From IMG/VR virus record IMGVR_UViG_3300029625_000016, positions 1-22,743 of that record: DNA of 22,743 nt. One strand, written 5' to 3'. The translations under genes and the position numbers were made by a program. Shown in pieces: positions 4,281-22,743 of the stretch. The stretch comes from a virus. The notes beneath the pieces were generated by a model that saw nothing but the letters and a program-made list of their open reading frames with translations, was not told the DNA's origin and made no database searches. Every line of letters begins with the position of its first letter. The first letter of the stretch is position 1.

Positions 4281-5684
4281 CTAGAAAGGATTAGTATTGC
4301 CACTTGAGACCATACTTGGCAGAATACCTGCCTGCGTTACTGTTTCTAATTCAGTATACCAATCGTTGCCTCGCGTATCTCCAATATGATTTATTTTAAT
4401 CACGCGGTATATGCCATCATGGTCAAGCATATATACCGGCTGTCCAATGTCGTATTTCTGATTTCTGATCAGGCTGTTGTCAACATGGACAAGCGAGCCG
4501 ATTTTGATATTTGGATTTAAGAGGCATTTTATTTTTGCTCCATAATCGTATTGAGTAGGAACACCTATGAGTCCTGATGAGGGGGAGAGATCAATTATTT
4601 CGGTGGGTTCATCGTCCATGCGCAGTATATTTATTTCTCCATCGTCAATATAACAAGTCGCGTTTTCTGATTGGGCTACCTGCCGCAAATAATCTATAGC
4701 TTTGCCAAAAACAACCTTCCCTCTCGTCAGTTGAGAATCGGATAAGTTCTCGGAAATACTGCCTAGTTGGGAGGGAATGGATGATTGAGAAACAATATTT
4801 TCAATAATTGAGCGCGCATTCTGACCTCTAGTAAGAGAAAAGTTAACCGTGCCGTAAGCCAGAAACTGGTCTGCGCTCATTGATACCAGCGTTAGTTTAT
4901 ATGTGGTACCACCTTCTTTTTCTCTTATCGGCTGTATCACATTGCCGCTGAAAATCTTACCATACATATTTCCTTCATATCCCGCCTCAACGACAACATG
5001 ATAACCCTCTTTTATTATTTTGTTTTCGGTCTCAGGTGCGAGGTTGTATATCGTTACTTCTGACCATAATGGTTGAATCATGATCGTTTTGACAATATTA
5101 AACGTGCATCTTAACTGGGACACGTCTATAGCTGTCTCGCCATTTTTGTCATATACCCAAATCCTGTATCTGCGTCCATACAGAAGGTTACCATATGCTT
5201 CTGTACCAGCAACCACAGAGTAATTTGTCTTGGGTATTTTAATATTCTGCAGAGGGCCGTAGAATGAAGAGCCCAGATCGACATTAACCATGCCGCTGCT
5301 GCCGTCATTCCTGCCGAACACAACGGTATAATTTTTGCCGAGATATTTCAGATATTGGCCGTTGTTGTACATAGTCCAGGCACTTAACCCCTGGCTTTTA
5401 TATACCTCACTTGCGGCATATATATTGTTATCTAAGTTGGAAAGCCAGGAAATCCATACATTAGTATCATTACTTCCCGTCCATTGCTGGAGTTGGCTTG
5501 AATGTGCAGAAAGATTAATCTGGAAAATACCAACGGAATATCCATAGTCATAGTCACCAATATTCCCCGTATAATAACTTGATTCGGCATAGCCTACGGC
5601 AGTCAGAATAACAGCATCATTATAAGGCACTCCATATGATACCAGTTTCCGTATAATGTAATTGCTGTCGTAAGCCACTATCAA
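4281..5684 (-). CDS. baseplate hub protein with N-terminal lysozyme-like domain
   Basis: A 467-residue protein of two parts. From about residue 168 (LYGRRYRIWVYDK) it follows the XkdQ-like/gp27-type hub pattern: EVTIYNLAPETENKIIKEG, VIQPIREKEGGTTYKLTL, LRQVAQSENATCYIDDGE, and near the C-terminus IYRVIKINHIGDTRGNDWYT. Residues 1-115 are extra and resemble a lytic transglycosylase or lysozyme fold: ILTAVGYAESSYYTG with candidate catalytic Glu34, then DYGYSVGIFQIN (46-57). The hub should cap the tail tube, hold the spike and carry the peptidoglycan-cutting domain to the cell wall. The gene overlaps the plug gene by four bases and precedes the spike. Hub identity is firm; enzyme activity is inferred. 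Confidence 0.9.
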   Translation of the reverse strand: MIVAYDSNYIIRKLVSYGVPYNDAVILTAVGYAESSYYTGNIGDYDYGYSVGIFQINLSAHSSQLQQWTGSNDTNVWISWLSNLDNNIYAASEVYKSQGLSAWTMYNNGQYLKYLGKNYTVVFGRNDGSSGMVNVDLGSSFYGPLQNIKIPKTNYSVVAGTEAYGNLLYGRRYRIWVYDKNGETAIDVSQLRCTFNIVKTIMIQPLWSEVTIYNLAPETENKIIKEGYHVVVEAGYEGNMYGKIFSGNVIQPIREKEGGTTYKLTLVSMSADQFLAYGTVNFSLTRGQNARSIIENIVSQSSIPSQLGSISENLSDSQLTRGKVVFGKAIDYLRQVAQSENATCYIDDGEINILRMDDEPTEIIDLSPSSGLIGVPTQYDYGAKIKCLLNPNIKIGSLVHVDNSLIRNQKYDIGQPVYMLDHDGIYRVIKINHIGDTRGNDWYTELETVTQAGILPSMVSSGNTNPF

Positions 5685-17766: not shown

Positions 17767-19302
17767 TTATTCTCCCGGCTTCCTGTAGAAGCGGCTATGG
17801 CCGTACCGTTTGTAATACTCTTCATTGGACATTTTATTCGGTATATCCTCATGGGCGGTAGATTGCTCATGAGAGTGGTAGGGATCCAACATGCCCAAAT
17901 CCGTCTCACCGGCTATTGTGGGACGGTCGCTGGCTTTCTCTATGTCCTCATCAGTTATATTGCTCCATAAGCCGGTAAGCGGTTCGATCTGTCTAAGTTC
18001 CTTCAATGCTATCTTGGGACTGATCAGCCCCATGTTATACACATCGGCTATGGACTGAGTCAATCTATTTGCGAGGTCGGCCTTGTCCGTATCCGTATTG
18101 CGTCTCACAGGATTAAAACGGTATGACAGATCATCGGGAACATACCCAAACTCAGACATGCATAAAACGGGGAGCAGTTTATCAATCGCCGGTCTTAAAT
18201 AAGCTTCCTGTTTTTCTTCAATAGTGTCGTAATAATTCTGCAGATCGCTCTCACCTGTGGCATTCATCCCTGCCGGGCTGCGACCGAAAAGTTTCGTTAC
18301 GGGAATTTCAGCGGCACCGCTGACATCGAGCATAAAATTCTCGTATATCTCGGCGAGACCGCTAAAAGTATACTGTTTCGCCTCGAAGTCATCGTCCTTA
18401 TCGATGATGTAGAGGCCCATGTTATTCATTAGCCAGTTCTGGGCCTGCACCGTATTGTAAAGGAGCTGCTGCGCCTGCGCGTTATTAGTGGCCAGCATTT
18501 GCCCTAATTCGTTCATTTTAAGAACGCGTAGATTGGCCAGGAACACCAACTGCGCGATATTCCAGCTGGTGTTGTCGCGCTTTTTTAACTCTTCAAAGAC
18601 ATGCTCTATTTCCGACGCGCCCCAGTATATTTCGGCCTGTTTTTCCCAGAACGGCAGGTCGCGTCCGACAAACCGGATCACGCGGCTATGATGTATGTTA
18701 ATAATTTCGCTCGTAGCATGATTCACCACCTGGTAAGTGCTGGGCAGTCCGAATTCCGGGTCATTTATATCAGTTACCAGGTCCGGACCGGGATATATGC
18801 CTGACCAGCGGTCAACGACGAGAAGACCCTTGAAACTGCCGGGGAATACCGAGTCAACGTCCAGAGGCTGATCAAGAATGTCTTCATGGCCGTCAATCAT
18901 TATGATTGCCGCCGCGCCGCCATAAAGCCTTCCCCATTTGAGACCTTCGAGTATCTTGGCCTTGACTCTCGTCCTGCGCTCCAGGATCGCTATTTTTTCA
19001 ATGTCCTGCGGAGGCAACTGACTCGATATTTGGTACCAGTTTTTACACATATCCTCCGGCACGACGTCGATAATTTTACGAATGACCCAGTGGCTGCGAT
19101 AGAGGCTGTTCATAAGCTGGTAATTCTTTGTCAGCCTGGTCAGCGGGTAATCAGTTGCCTCCAGGATATTGGGCATACCCCAGCCTAATCGGGCCAGCGC
19201 GTTCTGAAAAGCGTCCAGCGTTTTCATGCTGCTGCGCTCGCTGGCATTATCATAAAACTCCGGGTGTATTTTTTTTCTCTTTGCGCTATTGCGGCGTCCC
19301 AT
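17767..19302 (-). CDS. portal protein (DUF1073 family)
   Basis: A 511-residue protein. Residues 30-92 (AFQNALARLGWGMPNILEAT, then SLYRSHWVIRKIIDVVPEDM) are the DUF1073 N-terminal signature. The middle holds GGAAAIIMIDGHEDILDQPL and the C-terminal half has FGRSPAGMNATGESDLQNYY followed by EEKQEAYLRPAIDKLLPVL, the conserved stem and wing part. Length fits the family. AAGGTGG precedes the ATG. It forms the dodecameric ring at one capsid vertex, through which the terminase packs DNA, and lies between the terminase and the minor head gene as usual. Some DUF1073 proteins are annotated near anti-CBASS Acb1, but only portal features are seen here. Confidence 0.92.
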   Translation of the reverse strand: MGRRNSAKRKKIHPEFYDNASERSSMKTLDAFQNALARLGWGMPNILEATDYPLTRLTKNYQLMNSLYRSHWVIRKIIDVVPEDMCKNWYQISSQLPPQDIEKIAILERRTRVKAKILEGLKWGRLYGGAAAIIMIDGHEDILDQPLDVDSVFPGSFKGLLVVDRWSGIYPGPDLVTDINDPEFGLPSTYQVVNHATSEIINIHHSRVIRFVGRDLPFWEKQAEIYWGASEIEHVFEELKKRDNTSWNIAQLVFLANLRVLKMNELGQMLATNNAQAQQLLYNTVQAQNWLMNNMGLYIIDKDDDFEAKQYTFSGLAEIYENFMLDVSGAAEIPVTKLFGRSPAGMNATGESDLQNYYDTIEEKQEAYLRPAIDKLLPVLCMSEFGYVPDDLSYRFNPVRRNTDTDKADLANRLTQSIADVYNMGLISPKIALKELRQIEPLTGLWSNITDEDIEKASDRPTIAGETDLGMLDPYHSHEQSTAHEDIPNKMSNEEYYKRYGHSRFYRKPGE

Positions 19303-19329: not shown

Positions 19330-21444
19330 CTAGCCAGCCAGTCTCCAGGGCTTTATCTTGGTTTTCATGTAGAAGCGCAGCGCTTCCAGCGCTTCCATGC
19401 TGCCGGAAGGGACTTCTTTGCCGCGCTCCCTAGCCTTTTCATCCCACATGCAGGATGTTATTTCGCGTATGGTTTGCTGGCATTTTTCATGCACGCGTAA
19501 CATGCCCCACCGGATCATGCTGGACGTAATCCTTATGCCGTCGTTGAGGTCATCGACGGCATCGCGAACAAAATGCCCCCTCAAGCGCAATTCGCGCTTG
19601 AAACTTTCAGCGCCTGGACTGAGAATAATCTCTGCGGTCGCGTCGCTGTCTCCTATGAATTTCTCCAGATCGTCAGCATATTGTTTATCTGTTTTCTGCT
19701 GCCCGCTTTCGAGGCTATTGTAGTAGTATTCGTCAACCTGCCACACGGTGCGACCATCGTCCCATAAGTCAAGAAATACCATCGGCGTTGTCGTGCCGTA
19801 TTTCACTGCCACAGAACGCGTGGCGACATTTTTCAACCATAACGGTTGCGTGTCGTCGTTAAAAATATTGCTGCTGCTCCACATATCGTACACCAACATG
19901 GATTTTGCGCCTTGAAGCACCGAAAGTGCCATTTCAAGAGCGTCAGGTCCGTCATCATGCGCCGCCTTGGGCCAGTTTTCGAGTTGATCTATTAATACTC
20001 GCTGGTTCCTGTGAAATTTTACATAACCGTTATTGACGGTCGGCTGAATCGATTGAATGCGAAGCTCCTTATTTTTTATGGTCCTTATCTCGCGCAGATT
20101 GAGATAGAACCCGGCCGCAGCCGAGCGCTTGGCAACTTCATCCTTGAAGAACTGCTGGAACTGTACGGTTTCAACGCAAACCTCGTCGAATTTCCACACA
20201 CCGTGCATTTCAAACAGCGTCTCTATTATTTTGTCCGGGTGCATTCGGCGCAGTACCGCATCAAGCACGTACATATAACCAGTCCTCAGATGTTTGCCCA
20301 CGACGATGATAGCGGTGTAATCCGCCGAAGAGGTTTTGCCCATTGATGGGTCTACAGCGGCCACGACACGCATCTCCTCGCGTGGCGGCGCGTAATCATA
20401 CAAAGAACAATTAAATATCCTGTCTTCCGGGTTTATCGGTTCGTTCTGAAGCTCCGAATTAAACGAAGCCTCACCTTCAGTAACGCGCACCACCATCAAG
20501 TCATAGTAAGATTGCTTTTCCGGCCACAGGACTTCAGTTCCTTCCAGCATATCCTTTTTGTTTTTCTCAAAAAAATCCCTGGCTTTTTCTGTCCTGTCCG
20601 GCAGGCTGAGATCCGTAATTATCTCGGCCCACTCATCCCAAAGGTCCTGCCTGGGAGAAAACGATTTTACCGCCCGGTGTATCACAGATACCCAGGCCGG
20701 ATTGGTAAGAACCCACGAGAAAAGGCTGTCGTAGTGAATTATCGTTCCGACGTACACTATATCCGTATAGTCATCGCCGAGCTTCAGAACAACTTTTGTG
20801 AACCAGCTTTTTAATTTGGCACGCTGCTCTGGAGTAACCGTATTTTCGTCGTTTTCCAAATCGTCCAGAATTATCAGGTCCGGCCTGTATTTCCCGTGAC
20901 GCCGCCCGCGGATTTTTTGCCCGCTGCCGGCACATTCCAGCTTTATATTCGTATTGGTAACACACTCTATGGTATTCCACGGCGTGCCGACGATACTGCC
21001 AAAGTCCTCTAAAATACGTTCGTTACCCTCCAGTTCCCGTTGTATGTCAACCAAAAACTCGCTAGCCTGCGCCGCAGTGTCACTTATGATGAAAATATAA
21101 TTCTTTCGCCTGTATAGAGCGCAATAGAGGGGGAATACCAGCGTGGTACGCGTGGACTTGGCATAACCACGCGGCGATGCTTCCGCGTACCTGTTGCCTC
21201 CCGGCGTGTCGGCGATACGCTGCAGCACCTGATAACCATGCCTGTGAAATTCCGGTGTCTCGCGAAAAAGCCGGTCGGGGAAATATGCCCTTGCAAAATA
21301 CTCCATATCCAGCTCGCCAAGCTGCTTCCGCAAGCCTTTAGGACCGGTCAGAGGCATGTTTTTTTCAATTATCAAGTCTATCTGATCGCTGGTAAAATGC
21401 TTTCTCAGGTACTCCATCAAAAGTTTTTTCTCGGCAACGTCCAT
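19330..21444 (-). CDS. terL: terminase large subunit with extra C-terminal nuclease-like domain
   Basis: A 704-residue protein, well above the usual 450-550. The ATPase has Walker A-like SPRGYAKST (90-98), Walker B DLIILDDLE (189-197) and coupling motif YVGTIIHYDS (231-240). The first nuclease domain has VAAVDPSMGKTSSADYTAII with Asp365, then EVCVETVQF (Glu425) and HDDGPDALE (Asp498/Asp501), so it looks complete. Residues about 541-697 form a second unit resembling PBSX-type terminase nucleases: VKYGTTTPMVFLDLWDDGRT, DEYYYNSLESGQQKTDKQYA, DLNDGIRITSSMIRWGMLR and CMWDEKARERGKE. In that unit the expected acidic positions appear as Lys548, Ser609, Met683 and Glu687. GAGGGGT precedes the ATG. It is the packaging motor and DNA-cutting enzyme. 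Confidence 0.92.
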   Translation of the reverse strand: MDVAEKKLLMEYLRKHFTSDQIDLIIEKNMPLTGPKGLRKQLGELDMEYFARAYFPDRLFRETPEFHRHGYQVLQRIADTPGGNRYAEASPRGYAKSTRTTLVFPLYCALYRRKNYIFIISDTAAQASEFLVDIQRELEGNERILEDFGSIVGTPWNTIECVTNTNIKLECAGSGQKIRGRRHGKYRPDLIILDDLENDENTVTPEQRAKLKSWFTKVVLKLGDDYTDIVYVGTIIHYDSLFSWVLTNPAWVSVIHRAVKSFSPRQDLWDEWAEIITDLSLPDRTEKARDFFEKNKKDMLEGTEVLWPEKQSYYDLMVVRVTEGEASFNSELQNEPINPEDRIFNCSLYDYAPPREEMRVVAAVDPSMGKTSSADYTAIIVVGKHLRTGYMYVLDAVLRRMHPDKIIETLFEMHGVWKFDEVCVETVQFQQFFKDEVAKRSAAAGFYLNLREIRTIKNKELRIQSIQPTVNNGYVKFHRNQRVLIDQLENWPKAAHDDGPDALEMALSVLQGAKSMLVYDMWSSSNIFNDDTQPLWLKNVATRSVAVKYGTTTPMVFLDLWDDGRTVWQVDEYYYNSLESGQQKTDKQYADDLEKFIGDSDATAEIILSPGAESFKRELRLRGHFVRDAVDDLNDGIRITSSMIRWGMLRVHEKCQQTIREITSCMWDEKARERGKEVPSGSMEALEALRFYMKTKIKPWRLAG

Positions 21445-22674: not shown

Positions 22675-22743
22675 CTGTCTCTTATACACATCTCCGAGCC
22701 CACGAGACTAGGCATGATCTCGTATGCCGTCTTCTGCTTGAAA
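22675..22743. other. Illumina Nextera i7 adapter (sequencing artefact)
   Basis: Bases 22675-22693 are the Nextera transposase mosaic end (CTGTCTCTTATACACATCT) and 22694-22708 the i7 linker CCGAGCCCACGAGAC. Bases 22709-22716, TAGGCATG, equal index N706, and 22717-22740 the P7 flow-cell end, followed by AAA. This is read-through adapter left in the assembly, not phage DNA. Confidence 0.98.

Follow-up and report, generated by a model that had tools for sequence, protein, structure and literature searches.

The analysed window, a stretch of 22,743 nucleotides of viral DNA, encodes a terminase large subunit (TerL) of 704 amino acids at positions 19330..21444 on the minus strand, as judged from the ORF call, profile searches and an AlphaFold2 model of the whole protein. 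We consider it close to certain that this three-domain protein is a complete psiM2/Mu-like TerL that has acquired a further domain of RNase H fold, derived from TerLs of the PBSX/D6E lineage. Such a TerL with an added pseudonuclease is a variant on a known architecture without a described counterpart that we could find; literature searches in open-licence papers did not turn up a terminase described as bearing an extra, inactive nuclease. Nearly as certain is its origin, in which the resident PBSX-type TerL had its ATPase half exchanged for a foreign TerL. By a narrow balance of the evidence, we favour the explanation that the remaining nuclease, catalytically decayed, was kept as an adapter to the portal.

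The core of the protein (residues 1-512; 19909..21444, minus strand) was assigned from profile matches, invariant columns and motifs read from the sequence, and comprises an ATPase and a first nuclease. Residues 35-520 matched phrog_38 (E 4e-115), residues 375-510 matched TIGR01630 psiM2_ORF9 (2.9e-25) and residues 363-508 matched Terminase_6C. Walker A (SPRGYAKST) and Walker B (LIILDD) motifs were read in the ATPase. In agreement with the first-pass annotation, which had described a full ATPase and an intact first nuclease, the acidic residues of the latter (D365, E425, D498 and D501) were invariant in an alignment of 24 relatives. The protein thus has the profile match over ATPase and nuclease and the nuclease acidic residues of a phrog_38/psiM2-like TerL, but does not end after one nuclease domain. 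Retrieved tail-less phrog_38 relatives extended at most 87 amino acids beyond the core model, versus about 200 in the fused TerLs.

The additional part, hereafter the tail (residues 516-704; 19330..19899, minus strand), was identified by profile searches and structure comparison as a linker followed by a degenerate PBSX/D6E-type TerL nuclease domain. A PBSX/SPP1-type terminase nuclease had been proposed at about residues 541-697, and this was borne out by matches to TIGR01547 (PBSX TerL; 3.7e-6 over that same stretch), phrog_10250 (5.5e-18) and PDB 5oe8 (phage D6E TerL; 1.1e-23). The nuclease match does lie there, but the domain with its linker starts slightly earlier than the proposed boundary, near residue 516 (nucleotide 19899). 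A tail-domain profile matched D6E (1e-60) over the linker, the nuclease and the start of the C-terminal arm. An AlphaFold2 model of the tail alone (pLDDT 94.6, pTM 0.90) superimposed on the D6E nuclease with a VIA Z of 27.0 and an rmsd of 1.6 Å over 178 residues; the other two nucleases named for comparison in the first-pass annotation gave Z values of 16.7 (SPP1 G2P) and 16.5 (T4 gp17). After D6E, the structural neighbours were, in order, P22, G20c, SPP1 G2P and T4 gp17. The tail thus has the sequence profile and the RNase H-like terminase nuclease fold of a PBSX TerL nuclease; it lacks the three metal-binding Asp residues and is not preceded by a PBSX-type ATPase. The AlphaFold2 model of the whole protein (pLDDT 90.0, pTM 0.66) had a low-confidence hinge at residues 513-515 and left the orientation of the domains unfixed. 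No second, intact PBSX TerL was present in the records searched, each of which, including the 42-kb L105 record, gave one tail match.

At the fusion junction, the window protein and one of its two fused relatives (L002) have a methionine (Met516; window positions 19897-19899), and the other fused relative (L003) has one at the equivalent place; in 88% of intact homologues this column holds Gly. An internal start at Met516 that would release a free tail protein was not supported, as the predicted ribosome-binding pairing at the junction Met was weak (-2.4 to -5.4 kcal/mol, versus -8.1 kcal/mol at the TerL start).

The active site of the tail was compared with that of 77 intact PBSX-type homologues aligned to the fused tails. 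The catalytic set was chosen from the literature, with three Asp residues taken from G20c TerL and, for motif III, a His spaced as in SPP1 G2P (H400/D403). Intact homologues almost invariably had D548 (76/77), D609 (76/77), the motif III His (76/77) and D687 (77/77). In the window protein, the first catalytic Asp is replaced by K548 (19801..19803, minus strand) and the second by S609 (19618..19620, minus strand), while motif III, D-H-x-x-D in homologues, reads E684-A-L-E687 with one residue deleted (19384..19395, minus strand); all three features were read from the alignment to homologues. The first-pass annotation had listed Lys548, Ser609, Met683 and Glu687 as the changed metal-binding positions. 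Three of these held against the 77 homologues; Met683 was one column off, as it is E684 that aligns with D684 (77/77 homologues), next to the deleted His. No acidic triad at shifted positions was seen in the alignment. The four catalytic positions read K, S, gap and E in the window, D, D, D (in the His column) and T in L002, and S, H, N (in the His column) and N in L003, so that the site is broken in all three fused tails, by different substitutions in each. Remaining nuclease activity of the second domain, with a changed set of residues, appears from its sequence highly unlikely: L002 retains two of the three Asp residues and Glu can sometimes stand for Asp, but two of the three sites are Lys and Ser in the window, the three in L003 are Ser, His and Asn, and in G20c TerL a change of D to N at each of the three Asp residues singly gave the lowest nuclease activity (PMC5389553).

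Other conserved residues were mostly kept. Among the fused tails, 2 of 12 catalytic cells were retained, versus 135 of 159 at other invariant positions, defined as columns in which 85% or more of the homologues agree (Fisher 1.4e-6, the cells being non-independent). The remaining losses clustered near the motifs (P610, S611, N631 and K681). In a codon model, omega = 1 was rejected for the fused tails (2dlnL 275), with dS saturated and the value of omega itself therefore not meaningful. Together, the contrast in kept cells and the rejection of omega = 1 indicate, at the level of sequence, that the scaffold of the tail is under selection and its catalytic site is not. Branch lengths were 0.27-0.65 for the fused tails and about 0.14-0.15 for intact relatives; this faster evolution points to relaxed constraint. 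It is also what would be expected of a passive recombination leftover, tolerated and decaying, as are the different route of active-site loss in each lineage and the single fusion event. We regard this explanation as improbable, however, since the frame is uninterrupted in all three lineages despite core identities of only 71-75%, and since the rejection of neutrality, the retained non-catalytic cells, a conserved C-terminal arm and a confidently predicted fold all speak against it. Among standalone PBSX-type TerLs, one (L092, 553-1881) has a second motif, LPPEAASL, without Asp and a motif III His changed to Asp, and its nuclease is possibly weakened.

Two scans of viral contigs, one with the window protein and one with the fused-protein alignment, returned hundreds of phrog_38 relatives; from each scan, the 80 best were retained. 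Three distinct proteins among those kept carry the tail, with the same junction in each: those of the window, L002 and L003 (the last recurs as L004, L105, L265 and L266, loci from two records that share one TerL sequence). The other fused TerLs are 66-71% identical to that of the window over the whole protein; L002 and L003 are, respectively, 75 and 71% identical in the core and 60 and 53% in the tail. That the window is an assembly chimera was considered because it is an IMG/VR virus record with untrimmed adapter at one end, and was rejected because the same junction occurs in independent contigs that encode such divergent proteins with the same portal downstream. The closest tail-less relative among those kept (L005, found again as L095, from a Peptococcaceae MAG) has a core identity of about 70% and stops a little way past the first nuclease. 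No fused TerL was found in 50,697 phage records, 72,556 plasmids or 398 genomes of one phylum, and a scan of genome contigs returned tail-less relatives only.

When the tail was used as query, the scan returned standalone PBSX-type TerLs with intact motifs. Two of these, L082 and L099, share 59 and 61% identity with the window tail, a distance no greater than that among the fused tails themselves. Downstream of these TerL genes lie portals with 74 and 72% identity to that of the window, and then the same MuF-like protein. Homology between the window and L082 TerLs starts in the linker (YDMW...NDE/D), which indicates that the resident TerL lost its ATPase half and kept linker and nuclease. In the core tree, the three fused proteins formed one clade (UFBoot 100) with L005 as sister; in the tail tree, the fused tails were monophyletic (UFBoot 93) beside the L082/L099 group, a neighbour group that was itself weakly supported. 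One fusion event is the simplest reading of these trees. In L155 (2723-4030), a PBSX ATPase and nuclease (215 and 220 amino acids) lie in frame with an apparent single stop between them, which may be a nonsense mutation, a sequencing error or a recoded stop.

Directly downstream of the fused TerL, the window encodes a portal protein (PF06381, Phage_portal_3; 17767..19302, minus strand), of a family that otherwise follows PBSX-type TerLs. Profile matches placed the resident head module after it, with a MuF-like head protein (PF04233; 16915..17763, minus strand) and then a DUF2213 protein, a cement protein and the major capsid protein (PF09950; 13766..16679, minus strand). This adds a history to the first-pass annotation: a foreign TerL has taken the place of the ATPase half of a resident PBSX-type TerL, and the resident gene still lies beside its own portal type. 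In a census of 104 distinct Phage_portal_3 loci, 95 had a PBSX TerL with ATPase and nuclease, three a fused TerL, two a nuclease only (both on cut contigs) and four an undetermined TerL; as loci came partly from tail scans and partly from portal scans, the 95 cannot be read as an unbiased rate. Where 1.5 kb or more of downstream sequence was available, which held for 124 distinct phrog_38 TerLs, Phage_portal_3 adjoined 3 of the 3 tailed and 0 of the 121 tail-less proteins. In L005, the sister without a tail, the portal is of SPP1 type and the small subunit is a Terminase_2 protein. The portals of L002 and L099 are sisters (UFBoot 99) although their TerLs differ in architecture, which indicates that TerL and portal have been exchanged within the Phage_portal_3 family. 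Six distant Phage_portal_3 members from annotated phages (about 35-38% identity) were all accompanied by phrog_2-class TerLs, none of them phrog_38, and in five of the six the TerL nuclease was unmatched by the PBSX-tail profile; a PBSX-type nuclease is thus not strictly required for this portal family. Since tail and portal genes adjoin, linkage alone could produce the association, at least in part, and the association comes from one fusion event and three independent sequences only.

Several further observations concern the head module and its surroundings. Phage_portal_3-like portals without a recognised upstream TerL occur in L321 (1-3238) and L338 (1-2426); in L321, an apparent GIY-YIG-like endonuclease and a sugar-nucleotide enzyme were seen by eye in place of TerL. 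In L111/L112 (6903-9644), a Phage_portal_3-like portal lies within an open frame of 914 amino acids, and in L171 (3875-5386) a MuF-like protein lies within one of 504 amino acids; both may be head-module fusions. Elsewhere in the window (4281-5684), a baseplate hub gp41-like protein has an N-terminal lysozyme-like stretch, with weak SLT_3/Lys Pfam matches below cut-offs.

The first-pass annotation had noted that no small terminase lies next to the TerL gene. Indeed, none was recognised in the roughly 1.3 kb between TerL and the upstream end of the window; its last positions (22684-22743) are untrimmed adapter sequence in the public record, which we take to be Illumina P7 plus Nextera transposase sequence. 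The associated proposal, DNA recognition or small-terminase docking by the tail in compensation for a missing small terminase, gains something from this gap and is nevertheless very improbable. Ordinary small terminases lie just upstream of the fused TerL in L002 (PF16677/phrog_606) and in L004 (phrog_4044), the latter being the same phage as L003; they belong to different families, and the window itself simply stops in adapter sequence.

The C-terminal arm (residues 695-704, TKIKPWRLAG; 19333..19362, minus strand) was delimited by alignment. A KTxIKPWRL motif is common to all three fused proteins, and the closest PBSX TerLs have an identical or almost identical one. Columns 694-702 had an identity of 0.93, the highest of any nine-column window in the fused set, compared with 0.22 for motif III; the test is a modest one, as random column sets reached this level in 1.8% of draws. 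The D6E authors proposed, for that phage, that the C-terminal arm mediates assembly onto the portal (PMC5727402), and the fitted model of the HK97 motor has the ring of nuclease domains immediately beneath the portal (PMC10359639). Of the regulatory, DNA-binding and portal-docking roles that had been suggested for the tail, docking is the best supported, with the tail tracking the portal family and the arm as its best-kept stretch, and we infer it on those grounds.

The main rival is that the tail is a vestigial nuclease kept for DNA grip or for regulation of the ATPase, as a switch between initiation and translocation. The packaging ATPase of phi29 has such a vestigial domain, which lost cutting and kept DNA binding (PMC7672431). 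In D6E, removal of the nuclease domain raised the ATPase kcat from 7.8 to 457.7 per min, so that the nuclease restrains the ATPase, and the arm residue R421 affects ATP binding (PMC5727402); an arm arginine, R701, is retained in the window tail. The ATPase of the window protein, however, comes from another lineage, so that autoinhibitory contacts would need to have evolved anew, and the tail tracks the portal family though the small terminases vary. On balance, we consider a grip or regulatory role possible but unlikely.

Docking of the tail on the portal as an adapter is, in our assessment, its most likely role. Sequence comparison shows that, in an ancestor of this phage, a complete psiM2/Mu-like TerL with ATPase and active nuclease recombined into a resident PBSX-type TerL gene. 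The newcomer took the place of the resident ATPase half, and the resident nuclease became its C-terminal extension, still immediately upstream of the portal gene to which it belonged. The added nuclease then lost the residues that bind metal, whereas purifying selection continued to act on its fold, as the alignments and the codon model document. Through the arm and a portal-facing surface, the tail probably connects the foreign motor with the resident Phage_portal_3 portal, the first nuclease presumably does the DNA cutting, and loss of activity in the tail could prevent a second nuclease from cutting at the portal. An adapter is expected to keep fold and arm with a dispensable active site, and to follow the portal rather than the small terminase, with another portal beside the tail-less sister. 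Whether the graft is, more generally, an interchangeable portal adapter that lets a foreign motor drive a capsid with which it did not co-evolve is, to our mind, an evenly balanced question. The TerL surface that recognises the portal has so far been largely inferred. Here, ATPase and first nuclease have apparently been swapped while second nuclease and arm were kept beside a constant portal family, which offers a direct test; if correct, the adapter interpretation would mean that specificity for the portal resides in the C-terminal nuclease domain with its arm. The fused TerL also documents a route by which packaging genes of different lineages are joined, and its tail is a case of a pseudoenzyme in which a function decayed after being made redundant by a domain from another lineage.

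Compared with known systems, the tail resembles the PBSX-family TerL nuclease (TIGR01547; D6E, PDB 5oe8) in fold, sequence family, linker and C-terminal arm, and its nearest relatives adjoin the same portal family as in the window; it differs in being attached to a foreign, complete TerL and in having lost the catalytic Asp residues. Residues 1-512 are like psiM2/Mu-like TerLs (TIGR01630, phrog_38; BalMu-1, Mushuvirus, DMS3) in both domains and their catalytic residues, while the relatives retrieved from that group end soon after the first nuclease and none that could be tested is accompanied by Phage_portal_3. Like phi29 gp16, the window TerL is a packaging motor that has retained an RNase H-like domain without catalytic function. 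In gp16, however, no active nuclease is present and the dead one stands alone at the C terminus, whereas in the window TerL the dead domain is an extra one, derived from another TerL lineage, that follows an apparently active nuclease with intact residues.
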